The notes below the pieces were generated by a model, which saw nothing but the letters and a program-made list of their open reading frames with translations, was not told where the DNA came from and ran no database searches. Of a stretch of 32,104 nucleotides of DNA, positions 237 to 25,754 are shown piece by piece (positions within the stretch are counted from its first letter, which is position 1; every line of letters begins with the position of its first letter). The DNA is taken from the NCBI GenBank assembly GCA_020628085.1, contig JAHDFQ010000015.1:9663-41766 (forward strand), written 5' to 3'. The DNA is from Saprospiraceae bacterium (GTDB taxonomy: Bacteria; Bacteroidota; Bacteroidia; Chitinophagales; Saprospiraceae). Made by a program: the position numbers and the translations under genes.

Positions 237-3041
237 TTATAATTTGATAAGAGGTATAGTATAAGATTTATTTGTTTCGATGATCGATAAATAATAGACA
301 CCGCTGGGAAGAAGCGGGTCTATTTCTACGGAATAGGTCTTTGCACCTTTCTGGGTAATTGTGGCTCGCTCTGTACATTCTAAACCAGCTACACTATGTA
401 GCCGAATATTAGAATTTGGAGAGAGCGTTTGAATAGAATTCAGTGTAAAGGCATGTTCAAATGGATTCGGTGAAACCGTCCAAATATTCGATGCTTCTCC
501 TGAAAAATTAGTTGTTTCTTCTATCGCTGTCGTAGGATTATTTGTGTTGGTTGTGTCAACATCTATTTCATGATGATAGCCATCCGTTTCCTCACAATTT
601 GGTAGTAAACTTGGTGTACAAGGTACGGCATTGGTTCGTTGACTTTCTTTATTGTTAGCCGTAACACTTCTTACGGAAAACCAATATTCTTCATCTAAGT
701 TCATATTATAAACAATACTAATGCAAGTATCCTCTGTAACAGCTATGGATTCCATAATATCACAATTAAGAACACTAATTTCATAGGTGTCTGACATTGG
801 TGTTTTATCCCAAGACAATTGAACATGATCCATGCACGGAGAGTGTACAGTCAGGTTTTGTGGAATTGGTAATATTTGAAAGTTTTCTTCATTAAAAACA
901 TATGTTTCTTCATCAATTTTGCGGATACGCACTTTACCATTTTCTGTCCACACATCAGGTATTTCCCATAAAAATTGACGTTGATTAGCAGGAATATTGT
1001 GTCCAATTTTTATCCAGTTCAAGCCACCATCCAAAGAGTAATCTATTCCAAAAAGAGACGTGTTGTTACTGGCAGCATCCCACTGAATATATTCTGTTTC
1101 ATTCGGTTGCCATTGTTCTTTTCCAAAAGGATAGGTCAATTGAATAGTAGGCTCGACGAAGTCATACGTCACATGATAATTTTGTGTTCCTAAAGGAATT
1201 TGAAAACCACGAACTTGAATTTCGTAGGTTCCGGCTACTGGAAAATCGATGGTTACTTGTTCAATATTATTCAAATGATCAATTGCACGAACGGCTGGTT
1301 TCGTGACGTCATTCGGGTTCGGGTTAAGTGTCCAAGGGCGAAAAACTGCACCATTGGAGTCTGTAATTCTTAAATCTAAATCATTGATTAACGTTTGTGG
1401 TGTATCCATTTCACCTGCTAGATCGTGCCAATATAACATGAATTTTACCTGTGATAAACCCACAGGAACATCAATAGAATATTTATTAAATTCGGCATGT
1501 TCAATCGTATCTGAAATATATCGTTCTTGTTCAATAACTTCTATAGCTCGCAAAGCATTAAATGCTCCAAAACCATAAATATAATCAGGGTTTGGAGCAC
1601 CTAAATCATCAGCAGTATTGCAACTAATAGCCTTCATCAATGCACCGCTTGGATATGCATTGTTATGAAGTTGTTTGTATCGTTCGTATAATAAAGCAAT
1701 ATTTCCAGCTACAGCAGGCGTAGCCATACTTGTTCCACTGATTTCAAAGTAATTGTAATCTCGACCCATAGATTGAACATTGACTCCCGGTGCACAGATT
1801 TCTGGTTTGATACGTCCATCTAGTGCTGGGCCACGGCTTGACATGTTAGCAATGTTACGATCACCATCAATTGCTCCAACGGTTAATACATTTTTGGCTG
1901 AGCCATAATATCTTAAAACTGTTTTATAGCCTTGTGGATAATCACTACAAGAATCATTTCCACTATTTCCTGCTGCAAAAAGATGAAGCAAGTGTGGATG
2001 TTCTGTCAATTGTCGATCTAGATTGATACTGGAATAGTTATATGCACCATTCGTTGCACAATCTGCACCAACACCATAAGAATTATTGGTAATGCACATG
2101 TCAAATGCCTCTATATATTCTTCCGTTTCGTAAATAATATCAGTTGTCTTTTGAATAATAAGTTCCGCCTCATGCGCCATTCCTTTGGACTCTGGAAACA
2201 AGTGACCAGCTCCTGCAATAGAACCAGCTACGTGATCTCCGTGCGCTCCATAAGAATTGTAAGTACCATCAGCTTGATTGATAATTCGACAATTTAAATC
2301 AATATGATTGCCTAGTTCTCCACCATCACCGACTCCAATAACTATATTTTTACCTGTGAGGGCTCGTCCACCAATAGCAGTTGAGGTTAGAACATTGGTG
2401 CGCTGAATTTGAGTGTTTTCATAATTTAGTCGTTGTACGTCAGGACTAATTTTTTCTATCCAACGAACATTTGGATGCTGTGCTAACTGCTCTATATAAT
2501 GTTGCTTGATCGTCATATGAACGATAGATGCTTTTTTATTCAAGCGTTGGGTGATAATGGTTTGGTAGGTTGCATTGAAAATAACCCAATCTTCTTTTTC
2601 AAATGGTGTGTTTAAAATAACCGCTATTTCAATAGTTGAATGTTTACTGTTTTTCGATGGATTAGATAACTGATCTTTAAGTGCACTAGATATTTTTGAT
2701 GTTGATTCTACTTTTTCAATGGTATGAATGCCATATGTGCGAAAGATATTAGGATGTATCCGAGTAGAAATTTTTGCCAAATATTTATTATCATTTTTAT
2801 AAGCCAATAGTTCAATACCAGATAGAGCCATTTGCTGGATTACCTCATTATTAGGTAGTGTATCTAATGTTATATGAACATAAGCATAATTATCAAATGT
2901 ACTTTTATGAATAGCATCAAAATGAATACTCAGTTGATCTAATCTATTTGACAGATTAAAATCCATGTGTTGTCCTATCATTTGCACCGAAATGAACAAT
3001 ACGATCATCACGCTGCAAAGTCTTTTGTGTGTTAATCCCAT
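237..3041 (-). CDS. Secreted subtilisin-like (S8) serine protease with T9SS sorting domain
   Basis: Extracellular endopeptidase. With the ATG at 3041 the protein has 934 residues and opens with a signal peptide (MGLTHKRLCSVMIVLFISV). An in-frame ATG at 3098 would add 19 residues with no signal-like character, so I prefer 3041. The catalytic triad is visible: Asp239 (GVGDGG), His267 (HGDHVAG), Ser438 (GTSMATP), with oxyanion Asn359 (AAGNSG). The roughly 200 residues before the triad are probably an inhibitory propeptide. After the catalytic domain come a jelly-roll-like domain, an Ig-like segment and a fibronectin-III-like segment (CMDHVQLSWDK). The last 82 residues or so, from WTVSPNPF, form a type A T9SS C-terminal sorting domain. 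The protein should therefore be exported by Sec and T9SS and released or anchored at the cell surface. It is a single-gene unit with its own terminator. The substrate is unknown. Confidence 0.92.
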   Translation of the reverse strand: MGLTHKRLCSVMIVLFISVQMIGQHMDFNLSNRLDQLSIHFDAIHKSTFDNYAYVHITLDTLPNNEVIQQMALSGIELLAYKNDNKYLAKISTRIHPNIFRTYGIHTIEKVESTSKISSALKDQLSNPSKNSKHSTIEIAVILNTPFEKEDWVIFNATYQTIITQRLNKKASIVHMTIKQHYIEQLAQHPNVRWIEKISPDVQRLNYENTQIQRTNVLTSTAIGGRALTGKNIVIGVGDGGELGNHIDLNCRIINQADGTYNSYGAHGDHVAGSIAGAGHLFPESKGMAHEAELIIQKTTDIIYETEEYIEAFDMCITNNSYGVGADCATNGAYNYSSINLDRQLTEHPHLLHLFAAGNSGNDSCSDYPQGYKTVLRYYGSAKNVLTVGAIDGDRNIANMSSRGPALDGRIKPEICAPGVNVQSMGRDYNYFEISGTSMATPAVAGNIALLYERYKQLHNNAYPSGALMKAISCNTADDLGAPNPDYIYGFGAFNALRAIEVIEQERYISDTIEHAEFNKYSIDVPVGLSQVKFMLYWHDLAGEMDTPQTLINDLDLRITDSNGAVFRPWTLNPNPNDVTKPAVRAIDHLNNIEQVTIDFPVAGTYEIQVRGFQIPLGTQNYHVTYDFVEPTIQLTYPFGKEQWQPNETEYIQWDAASNNTSLFGIDYSLDGGLNWIKIGHNIPANQRQFLWEIPDVWTENGKVRIRKIDEETYVFNEENFQILPIPQNLTVHSPCMDHVQLSWDKTPMSDTYEISVLNCDIMESIAVTEDTCISIVYNMNLDEEYWFSVRSVTANNKESQRTNAVPCTPSLLPNCEETDGYHHEIDVDTTNTNNPTTAIEETTNFSGEASNIWTVSPNPFEHAFTLNSIQTLSPNSNIRLHSVAGLECTERATITQKGAKTYSVEIDPLLPSGVYYLSIIETNKSYTIPLIKL

Positions 3042-3180
3042 GATAAATGACGACTCATTTGTTTCAAGACATAGCATGGGAGGGTGTAATGATGGCATTA
3101 CACAGTTACTTTGTCCTAAAGTAATTTAGGCTGATTAATTTTCTTTGTTTTGAAAATTCAATGAAGTCAAGTGTTTAGAA

Positions 3181-3581: not shown

Positions 3582-4751
3582 TTATTCAAAAGGATTATTA
3601 TAGTGTGGATCACTAAAATAGGTCGTATCAGAAAGCATTTTCATAAATGCAATAATTTCCGTTTTTTCCTTTTCTGTGAGGTTAAGAGGTTTAATATTTG
3701 CATCAACATTTATAAAAGGGTGCCCTCCACTGCTATAATGATCCATTACTTCTTCTAAAGTTTGGAAACGACCATCACGCATATAAGGTGCCGAAAATTC
3801 AATATTTCGAAGCGAAGGCGCTCTGAACTTTCCATAATCTAACTCTCTATTGGTTATGGCTCCAAGTCCTCGATCCATAAAATCATCGTAGCTTCCAACA
3901 GAATCTATGCCATTATTAAAATATTCATTTGCGGTAAATAAAGGTGGGCCGTGGCAATGACCACATTCTGCATGTGTGACAAGGGTTGGGTCTTGTTCAT
4001 CAAAAAACATATCATTACCATTCAATTCAGCATCAGTAGGAAACAGAAAAGGATCATTTTGGTAAAATATCTTATCGTATTTAGAGTTTCCGCTAATTAG
4101 TGTTCGTTCGTATTGTGCAATGGCTTTTGTTGCTAAATCTTTAGTGATTTCATTCGTATTTTCGATACCAAAAGCTTTTCTAAATAATTCAGGATAGAAA
4201 TCACTCCTACGAAATTTTTCTTCTACGTTTCCCCAATCTTCATGCAATTCAACAGGGTCTTCAACAGGCAGTAGGGCTTGTGCTTCCAAGGTCTGAACTC
4301 GTCCATCCCAGAACAATCCCTTATTGAAAAACCCCACATTTAACAAACTCATAGAACTGCGGGGGCCTGATATACCATCAACTCCTGGACTCACTGCCAA
4401 ATTATCTGTAAAAGCGGCTTTTGGATGATGGCAAGAAGCACAAGACATGGTACTATCAATAGATAATATCGGATCAAAAAATAAAAAATGTCCTAGTTTT
4501 ACACCGTCTTCTGTCAACGGATTATCCGCAGGAATTTCCATTGGTGGGAAACCAGGCGGAATCTGCAATGCAAAATCCTGTGGATTATACGTAATATTGG
4601 TCAAATCCTTTCCTCCAAACGGTGATGGGTTAGCAACTCCACCACCTACTTCGTCATCTCCCATAACAGAGTCTTTGCAAGCTGTGCCCAAGAGCAAAAT
4701 AAGACTTGCAAATATTAAAAAGAATGAATGTTTGTAAGAAAAGGTTAGCAT
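3582..4751 (-). CDS. mbnH: MbnH-like diheme cytochrome c peroxidase family lipoprotein
   Basis: Periplasmic diheme enzyme of the bacterial cytochrome c peroxidase/MauG superfamily. The family member MbnH oxidises a Trp of its partner MbnP to kynurenine, which creates a copper site. With the ATG at 4751 it has 389 residues and a lipoprotein signal ending in LGTAC (Cys25). An ATG at 4802 would overlap the upstream gene and add a charged, non-signal extension. Two c-type heme motifs are present: CASCH (residues 104-108) and CGHCH (263-267). The C-terminal family block RAPSLRN...APYMRDGRF is also present. It follows mbnP by 10 bases, so the two are co-transcribed. The function as MbnH rather than a plain peroxidase rests on this adjacency. 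No other heme protein is encoded nearby. Confidence 0.85.
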   Translation of the reverse strand: MLTFSYKHSFFLIFASLILLLGTACKDSVMGDDEVGGGVANPSPFGGKDLTNITYNPQDFALQIPPGFPPMEIPADNPLTEDGVKLGHFLFFDPILSIDSTMSCASCHHPKAAFTDNLAVSPGVDGISGPRSSMSLLNVGFFNKGLFWDGRVQTLEAQALLPVEDPVELHEDWGNVEEKFRRSDFYPELFRKAFGIENTNEITKDLATKAIAQYERTLISGNSKYDKIFYQNDPFLFPTDAELNGNDMFFDEQDPTLVTHAECGHCHGPPLFTANEYFNNGIDSVGSYDDFMDRGLGAITNRELDYGKFRAPSLRNIEFSAPYMRDGRFQTLEEVMDHYSSGGHPFINVDANIKPLNLTEKEKTEIIAFMKMLSDTTYFSDPHYNNPFE

Positions 4752-4761
4752 TTTATTTTTT

Positions 4762-5556
4762 TTATTGAGCTTTGATCGCTTGTAAATAATTTTGAACAAC
4801 ATACTTCATTAATTCACCATCCTGATGTACAGCACTATTATTTATGATATCTAAATAATCGTTTTCTGAACGCACTAGTAACTTTCTGACATCAATATCT
4901 ATAGTTGGTAGGGATGTATTATCCTCGTCAATTGTGATTGGCATATCGAATTCTATTTCGTTGTAGTATTCGTTGCCACCAGTATGATATACGATTCCAC
5001 TAGTAAATGTTCCGTCAAGGTCTACATCAACTTTCCCTTCAAGTTTCGCAAAAATATAACTGTCCCAGGCAGCCCAGTAATCTCCTGAACCACCAAGTGG
5101 ATGCGTTCCTGAATAATCAGATGGAGAGGTAGCGTTCAGTTCGTCAGAAACACCAATTCCAAACCTCATTCCTGTATATTCACCAGTTGCTACATCAGAA
5201 AATTCAATATTATAGCCTTCATTTGCACTATCAATGTCAAGGTTTTGATTGGTAAAATCAACCAATTCTATATTTGAAATTTCCACTTCACTACCATCAG
5301 CAGCTATCAAAGCAACATCCGAAACGAAGAAATTAAATCTTGTAAAAAAGATAGGCGTACCGTCTTCATATTCATAGGTATCACCAATAACGAAAGGCGT
5401 GCCATCATAGTTGGCAGAAAAATTTACACTTGCATCAACGGAACTAGGTGAAGGCGGCGTAGGTTCTTCAAGAACGATACTTCCATCGTGATCGTAATAA
5501 CATGAACTGAAAGATAACAATACGGCAAATAGAAAAAGTAAAGGAAATTGTTTCAT
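4762..5556 (-). CDS. mbnP: MbnP-family copper-binding lipoprotein with intact Trp pair
   Basis: Predicted periplasmic metal-binding lipoprotein of the MbnP family. I chose the ATG at 5556 (264 residues), which opens directly on the lipoprotein signal MKQFPLLFLFAVLLSFSSC (Cys19). The longer reading needs a TTG start. Family landmarks in order are the beta-strand block TRFNFFVSDVALIAADG, then GEYTGMRFGIGV, then THPLGGSGDYWAAWDSYIFAKLEG. In the last block His152 and Trp161/Trp164 match the region where MbnP carries the Trp converted to kynurenine. Its stop codon lies 10 bases before mbnH. Of the three paralogues in the operon it is the only one retaining both Trp residues, and it is closest to the enzyme. 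It is therefore the most likely substrate of MbnH. Confidence 0.88.
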   Translation of the reverse strand: MKQFPLLFLFAVLLSFSSCYYDHDGSIVLEEPTPPSPSSVDASVNFSANYDGTPFVIGDTYEYEDGTPIFFTRFNFFVSDVALIAADGSEVEISNIELVDFTNQNLDIDSANEGYNIEFSDVATGEYTGMRFGIGVSDELNATSPSDYSGTHPLGGSGDYWAAWDSYIFAKLEGKVDVDLDGTFTSGIVYHTGGNEYYNEIEFDMPITIDEDNTSLPTIDIDVRKLLVRSENDYLDIINNSAVHQDGELMKYVVQNYLQAIKAQ

Positions 5557-5653
5557 AAGCTTTTTTGATTGTAAAAGATACAATAGTTTAAATGAAAAAT
5601 AAAGATAATTGTAATAAAACTATACAACGAAATAAACAGGTGTATTGTATGAA

Positions 5654-5694
5654 AGTTGACTAACTTGATTAGAGTAATTAAGCAAATGTCAACT
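5654..5694 (-). other. Intra-operon hairpin before mbnP
   Basis: In the 177-base gap between the second and first mbnP genes, arms AGTTGAC/GTCAACT enclose a second near-complementary pair (CTTAATTA/TAATCAAG) around a CTC loop. No T-tract follows. It could tune relative expression or mRNA processing within the operon. That role is inference only. Confidence 0.3.
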
Positions 5695-5733
5695 ATGAAG
5701 CAGAATTTCTGGAATAGCAAACTAGGTAGATAA

Positions 5734-6498
5734 TTACTCTATGCGTAGTGCATCTGTAAAATTATCTGCTATAAAACTCATAATTGGAAGTTCTGTATAT
5801 ATGATATTATCATTTTGAATATCTAGGGCATCGCCATTTTGTGGAATGAATATTCTTTCTAGATCGACGATCAAACGAATCTTATTTTCTGTATTATCAT
5901 CTAATAAAATATTGGTTGGAAGTGTGATTTCTCTATAAATTGGATCAGAAATCGTTTCATAGATCAGGCTATGATTGAATTGTCCGTCACCATTTAAGTC
6001 TGCATCACCGCAAATTTTGGTAAATACATAACCCTCTTGACTCGAACGAAAATTACTTTCATCCTTCAAAGGATGTGAATCTCCGTAATCATCTGGTTTG
6101 GTATTATTGTATTCCGATGTTACACCTATTCCAAGTTTAATGCCGCTATAATCACCCAAAGGTATTTGCGAAAGCGGAATATTTATACCTTGTAGTGCGC
6201 CTGCTTCGGTTTGATTAGAATCGGTAAAATCAACGAGCGAAATATCTGAAATAAGGATTCCATTTGTCCCTTCTTGTAGTAATGTAATATTAGAAATGAA
6301 AAATTTAAATGAAGTGAAACGAACTTTAAAATCAGTTGGATAATCGTAAATAGTGTTCATCAATAGCAGTTCATCTCCATATTGAGCAACAAATTGAACA
6401 TTCGCATTAGTTGTTTCACTAATAGGCTTCACTTCTCTGTCGATACAACTCGTTACGACAAGTGTCAGTACTATAAATATGCTTTTGATATATCTCAT
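5734..6498 (-). CDS. MbnP-family lipoprotein paralogue lacking the Trp pair
   Basis: This is a paralogue of the neighbouring mbnP: 254 residues, lipoprotein signal MRYIKSIFIVLTLVVTSC (Cys18). It keeps the family blocks (TSFKFFISNITLL, GDYSGIKLGIGV, DSHPL at His142, EGYVFTKICGDADLNGDG). Aligned without gaps from HPL onward, the first Trp of mbnP becomes Arg151 and the second becomes Gln154. The site that MbnH would modify is therefore absent. The fold is probably retained. It may bind metal differently, partner another protein, or be diverging. It is read in the same direction as its neighbours, with 87 bases to the upstream gene's stop codon. Confidence 0.82.
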   Translation of the reverse strand: MRYIKSIFIVLTLVVTSCIDREVKPISETTNANVQFVAQYGDELLLMNTIYDYPTDFKVRFTSFKFFISNITLLQEGTNGILISDISLVDFTDSNQTEAGALQGINIPLSQIPLGDYSGIKLGIGVTSEYNNTKPDDYGDSHPLKDESNFRSSQEGYVFTKICGDADLNGDGQFNHSLIYETISDPIYREITLPTNILLDDNTENKIRLIVDLERIFIPQNGDALDIQNDNIIYTELPIMSFIADNFTDALRIE

Positions 6499-6585
6499 CC
6501 GAACTATTCCTTACTATTAAACCACACGTTGTGTTGTTTGATCTAATGATTGATAAAATCAACGGGACATTGATGAGGGGGATTA

Positions 6586-7452
6586 TTATGGTATAACTTC
6601 AAAAACATTAACAGTGTTTAAAAATACCTGATCCTTTATAGAATCATCTGAATCTACAGCAAAATTTATGCCTTTAAACCACTCTAAGTAATTGATCCTC
6701 AAATTTATAGCTACATTAGCACCTCTGTTCACTTCAAGTGTATTTATCAATGGTAATGTGATGGTAGTTAAGTTGTTGATATTCAGTTCTGTATCAATAG
6801 TTTCGGCTGTTGTATCTTTTTTAAGAATGATTTTATTAAAAATAAAACCTTGCTCAATATCAATGTATAATAAGTCATCTTCTGTGCCATTAAGAATATG
6901 CTCTTCAGGTAAAGATTCTAGAAAAATATGATTGGTCGGTTTTTGAATACCTATATTAAAACGAATCGAATCATAAGTATTTGTACCTGCATAGTTTCCA
7001 ATAATGTAATCGGCTTGAGTGCGTTTTATGAGGCTAAAGTTGTCTTCAACTATTGCCGATTCAAGGTTGTTTTCATCATTTAAAACCTCTATGGCCAGAG
7101 AATCTGTCACGCCTACATGTTCACCATTAGAATTGATTAGTTGAAGATTGGAAAGATAGAATCGAATATCATTGACAATGAAAAAATGACTCGAATCAGG
7201 CTCTACTGTTTGAATTCGATTCAAGGCAAAATCAGCATTATTATTTAAACTGTCTTTACCTAGTTTATGCTGCATCGTAAGGGTCAAAGTAGGGTAGGTA
7301 CAACAACATTCGGGTAGGTCGGGCGCACAACAATCTTCATCTGCTGTCACATCATAATTTGTCGCATTGATATCCAGACAACCTTCTTCTTTTTCGGCAC
7401 AGGCATTGCAAAAAAGTAGGATTAAAATGATATTAATAATAAACGGTCTCAT
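6586..7452 (-). CDS. Divergent MbnP-family lipoprotein with N-terminal Cys cluster
   Basis: A 288-residue lipoprotein (ATG at 7452; a TTG lies one codon upstream). The signal MRPFIINIILILLFCNAC gives a lipid-anchored Cys18. The mature start resembles the Cys-delimited CLDxxATNYD motif common in Bacteroidota surface proteins. It then continues DEDCCAPDLPECCCTYP, giving six cysteines within about 27 residues (25, 41, 42, 49-51). The rest matches MbnP: VNDIRFYLSNLQLINSNG, then YDSIRFNIGI, then IEQGFIFNKI. The Trp pair is replaced by Ile and Glu. The Cys cluster suggests thiolate metal binding or disulfides; this is inference. The gene starts 11 bases after the exonuclease gene's stop codon, so it belongs to the same transcript. 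Confidence 0.75.
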   Translation of the reverse strand: MRPFIINIILILLFCNACAEKEEGCLDINATNYDVTADEDCCAPDLPECCCTYPTLTLTMQHKLGKDSLNNNADFALNRIQTVEPDSSHFFIVNDIRFYLSNLQLINSNGEHVGVTDSLAIEVLNDENNLESAIVEDNFSLIKRTQADYIIGNYAGTNTYDSIRFNIGIQKPTNHIFLESLPEEHILNGTEDDLLYIDIEQGFIFNKIILKKDTTAETIDTELNINNLTTITLPLINTLEVNRGANVAINLRINYLEWFKGINFAVDSDDSIKDQVFLNTVNVFEVIP

Positions 7453-7463
7453 CAATAAGCGAT

Positions 7464-8288
7464 CTATTTATTTTTCAACTCCTTCTCATAATCTTTCAAG
7501 GCTTGTTTAACAAACTGCTTAACCTGAGAAGAAAATTCCTTATTTAAAATCCAATGATAATATTGACGATCTTTGTGGACGGTTGCCCCAACGGGTTTAT
7601 TAATATATTTTCCAAAATTAAACACCGCCACACCTTCACTATCATATTTTAGTCGTTGTGTGGCGTCGATGGTTTTTAAATCATTTGTAAATTCATGCAA
7701 AGCCGCCATATCATTTTTAATAGGTGCTTTCACTGGGTTTCCGTCGTAGTCCTCTGCATCTACACCTTTGTAGCGTTCAATTTGTCCTTTCAAAACAGCT
7801 ACCGTAGCTCTCACGTCTGCCATCGCATCATGTGCATTTTCGATGGTTTCTCCTGTATAAAATTTGAGTGCTGCACGAAGCGTACGAGGTTCCATTTTAT
7901 AAAAAATACGTTGAACATCTATACTACGTCGTTTGGACATATCAAACTCAATGCCCACACGAGCAAATTCTTCCATCAAAAGAGGTACATCAAAACGGTT
8001 AGAGTTGTATCCTGCTAAATCTGCATTGCCAATAAATTCAAAAATTTGTTGTGCAACTTGCTGAAATGTAGGTTTATTGGCAACATCTTTAGGCGAAATA
8101 CCATGGACACCCATTGCTTCCAGTGAAATGGGAATGCCAGGATTGATGAGCATGTTGAGTTCCGTTGGTTCATCACCATTTTTATGGTATTTTATCATAC
8201 CTAATTGAACGATCCGATCTCGAATCACATTCAAACCCGTTGATTCTAAATCAAAAAATATTAAGTCTCTATCTAAATTAAAGTCCAT
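7464..8288 (-). CDS. DEDDh 3'-5' exonuclease (DnaQ-like) with ExoX-like C-terminal domain
   Basis: Cytoplasmic nuclease acting on DNA or RNA 3' ends with two metal ions. The 274 residues show all DEDDh motifs: Exo I Asp13-x-Glu15 (FFDLEST), Exo II Asp100 (NRFDVPLL), and Exo III His153 with Asp158 (HDAMADV). The C-terminal third (VFNFGKYINKPVGAT...YYHWILN) resembles the small domain at the end of ExoX-like exonucleases. It is not the replicative epsilon subunit with certainty; it looks like the stand-alone type used in repair or turnover. It starts 16 bases after apbE and ends 11 bases before the first mbnP paralogue, so it is co-transcribed with genes of unrelated function. Confidence 0.9.
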   Translation of the reverse strand: MDFNLDRDLIFFDLESTGLNVIRDRIVQLGMIKYHKNGDEPTELNMLINPGIPISLEAMGVHGISPKDVANKPTFQQVAQQIFEFIGNADLAGYNSNRFDVPLLMEEFARVGIEFDMSKRRSIDVQRIFYKMEPRTLRAALKFYTGETIENAHDAMADVRATVAVLKGQIERYKGVDAEDYDGNPVKAPIKNDMAALHEFTNDLKTIDATQRLKYDSEGVAVFNFGKYINKPVGATVHKDRQYYHWILNKEFSSQVKQFVKQALKDYEKELKNK

Positions 8289-24782: not shown

Positions 24783-25754
24783 ATGAAAAACCTAATTACT
24801 TTAGTACTAATCATTTGCTATTCAATTTCTATTGCTCAACTACCTGAAGCCAACTTGATATTTAGGCTCGACTATGATAATGACTTCTTAATCAATGAAG
24901 GGGAAACAGCCTTTTATGATTCCGAAGGTGGCGTTTTGTCCAAAGATAGGTTCGGAATAGAAAATAACGCATGTACATTTAATACTGAAAAACAAATTGT
25001 AAAGTTTGAAGAATTTTTATGTATCGAAAAAGAATTAACCATATCTCTTTGGATTAAATTTGAAAGTTTTGAGGGTGATAGGTATCCTATTGTGATGCTA
25101 GCTAATAAAGATGAATTTATACATGGCTTTACAAATAAATTAGGTTTTGAAGTACATAACAGTAAAACTTCTCTAGGTTATTATAATCAAACTGGTGGGA
25201 GAATTATTTACGATCATAACAATTTATCTTATGATAATCAGTGGCATAATCTCGTTGGTACAATTTCAAACGAATCACGTATAAAAATGTACGTTGACAA
25301 TCAATATTTAGGGTATCATGAATTTGATATACAAACGCTAGATGGTTTAGACCAATTGATAATAGGCGGAGGATATGATGATTTGTACGGACATTTAAGT
25401 ATTGATGATATTAGAATTTATAATCGATCTTTGACATTATGTGAAATAGATGCACTGTACTATGAAAAAGATAATATCGTTGACTGTGATCTAGTAGAAG
25501 AAATAAGCTGTAATGGAATAGTTAGTGTTTCAGAAGCGAACTCAAATAAATTAAAAATATATCCCAATCCAGTATCAAATGGAATCGTTACAGTAGAAGG
25601 TGTACAATCTAAAGCATATCAAGTGTTTAATCAAATAGGAATAGAGGTTGAAAGAGGAACAATAAATACTAATCAAATTATCTTGAATAAAATTCCTTCT
25701 GGGTTTTATACATTGAGAATAGACGGAATAACCAAGAAACTAATAGTTGAGTAA
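24783..25754 (+). CDS. Secreted LamG-domain protein with T9SS sorting domain
   Basis: A 323-residue secreted protein: signal peptide MKNLITLVLIICYSISIAQ, then a LamG/concanavalin-like jelly roll (about 25-225). Typical strands are ELTISLWIKFESF, QWHNLVGTISNESRIKMYVDNQYLG and LSIDDIRIYNRSLTLCEIDALY. A T9SS type A sorting domain runs from about 257 (KIYPNPVSNGIVTVEG...SGFYTLRIDG). LamG domains usually bind carbohydrate or protein ligands; no catalytic motif is seen. It is a single-gene unit with 120 bases upstream and a hairpin 14 bases after the stop codon. Confidence 0.9.
   Translation: MKNLITLVLIICYSISIAQLPEANLIFRLDYDNDFLINEGETAFYDSEGGVLSKDRFGIENNACTFNTEKQIVKFEEFLCIEKELTISLWIKFESFEGDRYPIVMLANKDEFIHGFTNKLGFEVHNSKTSLGYYNQTGGRIIYDHNNLSYDNQWHNLVGTISNESRIKMYVDNQYLGYHEFDIQTLDGLDQLIIGGGYDDLYGHLSIDDIRIYNRSLTLCEIDALYYEKDNIVDCDLVEEISCNGIVSVSEANSNKLKIYPNPVSNGIVTVEGVQSKAYQVFNQIGIEVERGTINTNQIILNKIPSGFYTLRIDGITKKLIVE

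Follow-up and report, generated by a model that had tools for sequence, protein, structure and literature searches.

A Saprospiraceae operon that places one predicted maturable MbnP and two MbnP-fold paralogues lacking the Trp-His site beside an MbnH-type diheme enzyme

Genes of the locus

The stretch of DNA considered here, referred to throughout as the window, comprises 32,104 nucleotides from a Saprospiraceae bacterium (phylum Bacteroidota; contig JAHDFQ010000015.1 of assembly GCA_020628085.1). Its minus strand carries a run of genes, extending from 9339 to 3582, that combines an MbnH-type diheme enzyme with three lipoproteins of the MbnP family, here called P1, P2 and P3. The order of transcription is ApbE, exonuclease, P3, P2, P1, MbnH. 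An earlier note on the same sequence had drawn attention to positions 3582-7452; that range does span MbnH and the three MbnPs, but the conserved run continues to 9339, taking in the exonuclease and ApbE. The genes of the run are as follows.

3582..4751, minus strand: MbnH-type diheme enzyme (CCP_MauG 183 bits; best match in the Protein Data Bank (PDB) 6e1c; two CxxCH motifs)
4762..5556, minus strand: P1, MbnP with a predicted maturable site (PF20243 104.2 bits; Trp170 and His200 columns; 7l6g Z 17.3)
5734..6498, minus strand: P2, MbnP paralogue with Trp replaced by Arg and His by Glu (PF20243 70 bits; BLASTP against P1; tree)
6586..7452, minus strand: P3, MbnP-fold paralogue without Trp and His (PF20243 64.6 bits; clade 100/99; N-terminal motif; 7l6g Z 14.6)
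7464..8288, minus strand: 3'-5' exonuclease of the RNase_T family (Pfam), a conserved neighbour upstream of P3
8305..9339, minus strand: ApbE, FAD:protein FMN transferase (Pfam ApbE 269.6 bits), first gene of the run

The likely start of P1 is the ATG at 5556, the listed open reading frame (ORF) beginning with TTG at 5583; residue numbers for P1 follow the 273-amino-acid ORF. For MbnH the likely start is the ATG at 4751, in a frame that is open as far as 4802, and the protein has a lipoprotein signal, judged by eye. With these starts, and with the P3 ATG at 7452, the gaps along the run, taken from the ORF table and the sequence, are 16 bp (ApbE-exonuclease), 11 bp (exonuclease-P3), 87 bp (P3-P2), 177 bp (P2-P1) and 10 bp (P1-MbnH). 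Scans for promoters and terminators returned results at chance level. The genome of the window, 5.0 Mb in 284 contigs and 97% complete, has PF20243 matches in P1, P2 and P3 only, and six other contigs carry its further CCP_MauG proteins.

Family membership and fold

All three lipoproteins score above the 27-bit cut-off of the Pfam family PF20243 (MbnP), in agreement with the earlier note, which had allowed that P2 and P3 might fail a profile search. Both matched, and P3 is also placed in the family by its predicted fold. Scores against the equivalog family TIGR04052 of NCBIfam (MbnP_like_WxW; cut-off 140 bits) were 43.3, 25.4 and 22.7 bits for P1, P2 and P3, respectively. By profile, the three proteins therefore belong to the wider Pfam MbnP family and fall outside the TIGR04052 equivalog.

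Fold comparison covered AlphaFold2 models of P1 and P3, searched with Foldseek and VIA. The P1 model (predicted local distance difference test score, pLDDT, 93.3) matched 7l6g, the MbnP of Methylosinus trichosporium, with Z 17.3 and a root-mean-square deviation (rmsd) of 3.0 over 206 aligned residues; the P3 model (pLDDT 89.6) matched it with Z 14.6 and rmsd 3.6 over 198. The next-best structures reached Z 4.7 for P1 and 5.2 for P3. Sequence searches of the PDB returned no MbnP with P1 alone, with a profile of the P1 clade (A5) or with a P3 profile (A6); MbnP was found with a mixed MbnP profile (A2).

The Trp-His site

The mixed profile aligns the AWNW of 7l6g with ywsw and its VHVG with yHig. 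In alignment A2, P1 Trp170 shares a column with the first Trp of the 7l6g WxW (AWNW), and P1 His200 with the His of VHVG. According to its abstract, a 2021 PNAS paper on MbnP reportedly found that the first Trp of WxW is converted to kynurenine through MbnH, and we take this Trp, in the column of P1 Trp170, to be the kynurenine position. P2 has Arg in that column and Glu in the near-invariant His200 column; in P3 the two are Ile and Asn.

The segments on which the earlier note had based its comparison, DYWAAW in P1, NFRSSQ in P2 and LYIDIE in P3, are confirmed: the first two are gapless in a BLASTP alignment of P2 with P1 (29%, E-value 4e-45), and in P3 the W-to-I pairing appears both in a profile-profile alignment and in A2. 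Its proposal of one maturable MbnP accompanied by two without the target Trp is likewise supported, since the reported kynurenine position, traced through a characterised MbnP, is the residue that P1 keeps and that P2 and P3 have lost. The claim that P1 retains the modifiable Trp pair needs qualification. The first Trp does match the WxW column of 7l6g, but the P1 pair is WxxW, its second Trp standing one place later than in WxW.

The same site was tabulated for 148 unique non-P3 MbnPs and 95 unique P3 proteins from the fetched loci (190-420 amino acids, at least 60 bits), after manual relabelling of three rows, L064 and L067 as non-P3 MbnPs and L218 1537-2184 as P3 (L denotes loci and G genomes). 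The 95 do not include P3 from L221, L223 or L224. Trp and His occur together in 137/148 non-P3 MbnPs versus 0/95 P3 proteins. Trp without His is found in 1/148 versus 15/95, His without Trp in 3/148 versus 1/95, and neither residue in 7/148 versus 79/95. When the His column is set aside and an HxG is sought 10-65 residues past the Trp column, the counts are 126/148 versus 1/95. Outside P3, therefore, the two residues have mostly been gained or lost together. The spacing of the pair also differs with context: Trp-bearing MbnPs that adjoin P3 have WxxW in 56 of 74 cases, and those found elsewhere have WxW in 44 of 64.

The diheme enzyme

The best solved-structure match of the window's MbnH is 6e1c, 'Di-heme enzyme' (E-value 9.9e-47), presumably M. 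trichosporium MbnH. Against TIGR04039 of NCBIfam it scores 255.9 bits, below the cut-off of 362.85. In 406-amino-acid numbering the protein has two CxxCH motifs, Trp165 and, at the axial position, Tyr356. Diheme enzymes of the MbnH and MauG type carry a Tyr in place of the axial Met of peroxidases; by alignment, this position is Tyr in 6e1c and Met in 1iqc. Of 156 MbnHs compared, all 156 keep the axial-position Tyr and, in each CxxCH motif, the His and the first Cys. The Trp165 column is Arg, Lys or Phe in 21 of the 156, mostly proteins of about 340 amino acids (including L055 1990-3003, L061 2260-3285 and L080 4404-5426), several of which stand first in a tandem pair of MbnHs.

The state of the MbnP site was compared with the presence of a downstream MbnH for 144 of the 148 non-P3 MbnPs, four at contig ends being dropped. 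Where the site is intact, MbnH follows in 122 cases and is missing in 11; where it is lost, the numbers are 6 and 5. The Fisher p of 0.0028 overstates the association, because the 10 losses of Trp represent about four groups in the tree. The idea that sites are lost only where MbnH is absent is weak, given also that four of these losses (L072, L159, L178 and L197) lie next to MbnH in runs without any site-bearing MbnP. A second idea, that the loop following the axial Tyr of MbnH changes along with loss of the substrate, was rejected, as this loop varies widely beside intact MbnPs too.

P3 is a clade of its own

A tree was built from 111 MbnPs, leaving out four MbnP rows (L063 2913-3623, L092 1-702, L005 and L085); its bootstrap had not settled, and all support values quoted from it are rough. 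The 31 P3 rows form a single clade (100/99), and every one comes from Saprospiraceae. It was found in 31 of 37 sampled Saprospiraceae genomes, the window's included; the other six had no P3 among their PF20243 hits. In a sample of 395 genomes from the phylum, matches above 100 bits that reach the N-terminal part occurred only in Saprospiraceae, in six genomes, two of which have a stop codon within the match. A further scan with a motif pattern, which is unfit for measuring motif frequency, placed P3 in 73 titled loci assigned to Saprospiraceae, Lewinellaceae, Chitinophagales, unplaced Bacteroidota bins and one Sphingobacteriales.

Members of the clade have a Cys-rich segment directly behind the lipid-anchor Cys, which in the window reads GCLDINATNYDVTADEDCC...CCCTYP. 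A Gly/Ala-Cys-x-Asp/Asn motif (N-terminal GC or AC) is present in all 31 tree-defined rows, and the CC form of the cluster in 88/95 P3 proteins versus 0/148 other MbnPs, part of the 95 having come from the motif-pattern scan. The motif has no counterpart in Pfam: at E 0.01, MbnP was the sole family matched by 51 of 57 P3 rows. Two proteins of about 320 amino acids from genomes of the same class (L143 3182-4150 and L144 3100-4056) match part of this motif by profile and have no Pfam hit above cut-off.

Ratios of non-synonymous to synonymous substitution (dN/dS) for four pairs of P3 genes, two of them sharing a member, were 0.05-0.09; with synonymous divergence (dS) at 1.3-2.7, these ratios are rough. 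In one pair P3 is 81% identical and P1 54%. By these measures P3 is under purifying selection.

P2 is a duplicate within the genus

The P2 proteins of the window and of G001 group with a protein of G002 (locus L056) in a clade (100/98) that joins the three P1 proteins (99/88). On this placement P2 is a recent, genus-level duplicate of P1. Trp has been lost in all three (Arg, Arg, Leu) and His in two, while all three P1 orthologs of the genus keep Trp beside MbnH. The P2 frame is open and recognisable in each of the three genomes; its synonymous sites are saturated, so that no dN/dS ratio could be obtained.

The array in other genomes

The arrays of the 95 P3 loci were read by direct adjacency. 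P3 is followed by a site-bearing MbnP and MbnH in 50 loci, with one more that has a weak extra match after MbnH; by a site-bearing MbnP and two MbnHs in 15; and by a site-less MbnP, a site-bearing MbnP and MbnH in two, the window and G001. Thus, a site-bearing MbnP and MbnH stand directly after P3, in the same run, in 68/95 loci; a separate count of the arrays gave the same number. The remaining loci have P3, a site-less MbnP and MbnH (four); P3 and MbnH (four); P3 and a site-bearing MbnP without MbnH (six, plus two at contig ends); P3 and a site-less MbnP without MbnH (two); or P3 alone (five, plus four at contig ends). The earlier note had proposed counting mixed MbnP arrays beside MbnH in other genomes, and this count shows that the P3-P1-MbnH array is the usual arrangement in Saprospiraceae. 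The three-member array is therefore a genus-level extension of a family-wide array with two members. No description of MbnP arrays with site-less members was found among the open-licence papers searched.

Two sets of loci depart from this arrangement. In L072 (2496-5445), L159, L178 and L197, which form one clade, the two local MbnPs both lack Trp-His; the corresponding genomes (G011, G451, G452 and G453) have other MbnPs with Trp and HxG elsewhere. In L148, L173, L207, L222 (= L084), L223, L224 and L221, P3 directly adjoins MbnH with no MbnP between them, which suggests a link between P3 and MbnH. Three genomes with P3 beside MbnH (G456, G457 and G458) have a site-bearing MbnP elsewhere, in a fetched stretch without MbnH; G459 is similar, except that a contig end truncates its other MbnP. 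No site-bearing MbnP was seen in G455, which is 1.8 Mb and probably incomplete.

Relation to known systems

The MbnP/MbnH pair of M. trichosporium OB3b resembles the window in that both protein families match by profile and fold and that the first Trp of its WxW and the His of its HxG align with P1 Trp170 and His200. It differs in that P1 has WxxW and that the window adds two site-less MbnPs, one of which, P3, has a Cys cluster. Reports on CorA/CorB of Methylomicrobium album and MopE/SACCP of Methylococcus capsulatus describe a diheme peroxidase gene that adjoins the gene for a surface copper protein in which Trp becomes kynurenine and two His serve as ligands (PMC3912023, PMC3621798), an arrangement like that predicted for the window. 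CorA is described as holding copper by two His near the kynurenine (PMC3912023). MopE and CorA were not among the matches listed in the fold searches with P1 and P3, which does not exclude kinship. Within the same order, the tandem pairs of L104, L105 and L038 also have two MbnPs before MbnH, but both copies have the Trp and neither belongs to the P3 clade. No methanobactin gene was named among the 23 window ORFs scanned with Pfam; the loci of relatives were not searched for one.

Possible roles of P3 and P2

The operon probably encodes a system for handling copper in the envelope, comprising one MbnP-fold lipoprotein that can mature and two that cannot, P3 and P2, which may act as accessory partners. 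By homology, MbnH would oxidise P1 Trp170 to kynurenine, which together with His200 would form part of a Cu(I) site in P1. P3 is an old MbnP paralogue whose clade is without the Trp-His pair and bears a Cys-rich segment after the lipid anchor; P2 is a recent duplicate of P1 that lost Trp in all three genomes of the genus and His in two. P3, joined by P2 in this genus, could then assist P1 and MbnH, most likely by passing copper to or from P1 or by docking MbnH, and P3 would use its Cys cluster in this role. Taken alone, the partner role is a tentative proposal, made because the linkage is conserved and because P3 evolves under purifying selection and carries a Cys cluster. More speculative still is a version in which P3 is a dedicated non-maturable partner whose anchor-proximal Cys cluster loads or unloads Cu(I) on the kynurenine protein P1.

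Several observations weigh against such an accessory system. The target-column Trp persists, without His, in 15/95 P3 proteins, and because of these the loss of Trp in P3 seems not to have been a single event. The Cys motif resembles what we take to be a common Bacteroidota segment and may be a disulfide-held linker rather than a metal site. Eleven of the 95 P3 loci (P3 with a site-bearing MbnP, or P3 alone) have no downstream MbnH although no contig end lies within 700 bp, and two more without MbnH consist of P3 and a site-less MbnP. In L072, L159, L178 and L197 the P1 site is lost as well although heme and axial residues are kept in the adjacent MbnH, so that no site-bearing MbnP is required locally. 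Within the genus, the P2 ortholog of G002 keeps His, and P3-P2 of this genome lie on a different contig from P1-MbnH.

Some of these observations fit other explanations. P2 and P3 might function without P1 and MbnH, holding another metal or ligand either through the Cys cluster or in the former pocket; shared regulation would then be all that the operon reflects. The restriction of the CC form to P3, subject to the bias of the motif-pattern scan, is consistent with this, as are the retention of the HPL His in 77/95 P3 proteins and the two genomes (G002 and G028) that have P3 and a site-less MbnP without MbnH. The seven loci where P3 lies directly beside MbnH argue against independence, most of these genomes having a site-bearing MbnP elsewhere, and the explanation is a possible one that falls short of being probable. 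It is rather unlikely that MbnH instead modifies P2 or P3 at other aromatic residues, making the array a set of differently matured substrates. While the persistence of MbnH with its heme and axial residues beside two site-less MbnPs in the L072 group would be expected under this model, the Trp- and HxG-bearing MbnPs elsewhere in those four genomes are possible substrates in trans, and P3 has no Trp in any column that is invariant or nearly so. The divergence of P3 sequences and the Trp that some of them still have could also point to duplicates decaying without function. This is very improbable: the low dN/dS values, rough as they are, largely refute decay for P3, which is also better conserved than P1 in the pair compared above and keeps its operon place in most of the 95 loci, and P2 remains open and recognisable in three genomes.

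If the more speculative version, with P3 as a dedicated partner, is correct, the operon would encode a two-lipoprotein copper relay, typical of Saprospiraceae and distinct from the known one-protein MbnP/MbnH pair. Studies of MbnP and MbnH have dealt with methanotrophs; in much of a Bacteroidota family, the pair forms part of an operon that also encodes a conserved paralogue. The Trp-His pair offers a rule that predicts which MbnPs can mature. A conserved P3 without the maturation residues is a natural site-dead control beside a live P1, and the array allows the function of the MbnP fold in the absence of kynurenine to be addressed directly.

Neighbouring genes

An RNase_T-type exonuclease lies directly upstream of P3 on the same strand in 73/95 loci, or 70 of the 89 that have at least 900 bp of room, and often overlaps P3 (median gap -23 bp). 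An ApbE match is present in 50/95 P3 loci, a set that includes loci truncated at contig ends. Elsewhere in the window, 237-3098 and 24783-25754 encode subtilase and laminin-G proteins with matches to the sorting tail of type IX secretion; the match of the first scores below the Pfam cut-off.

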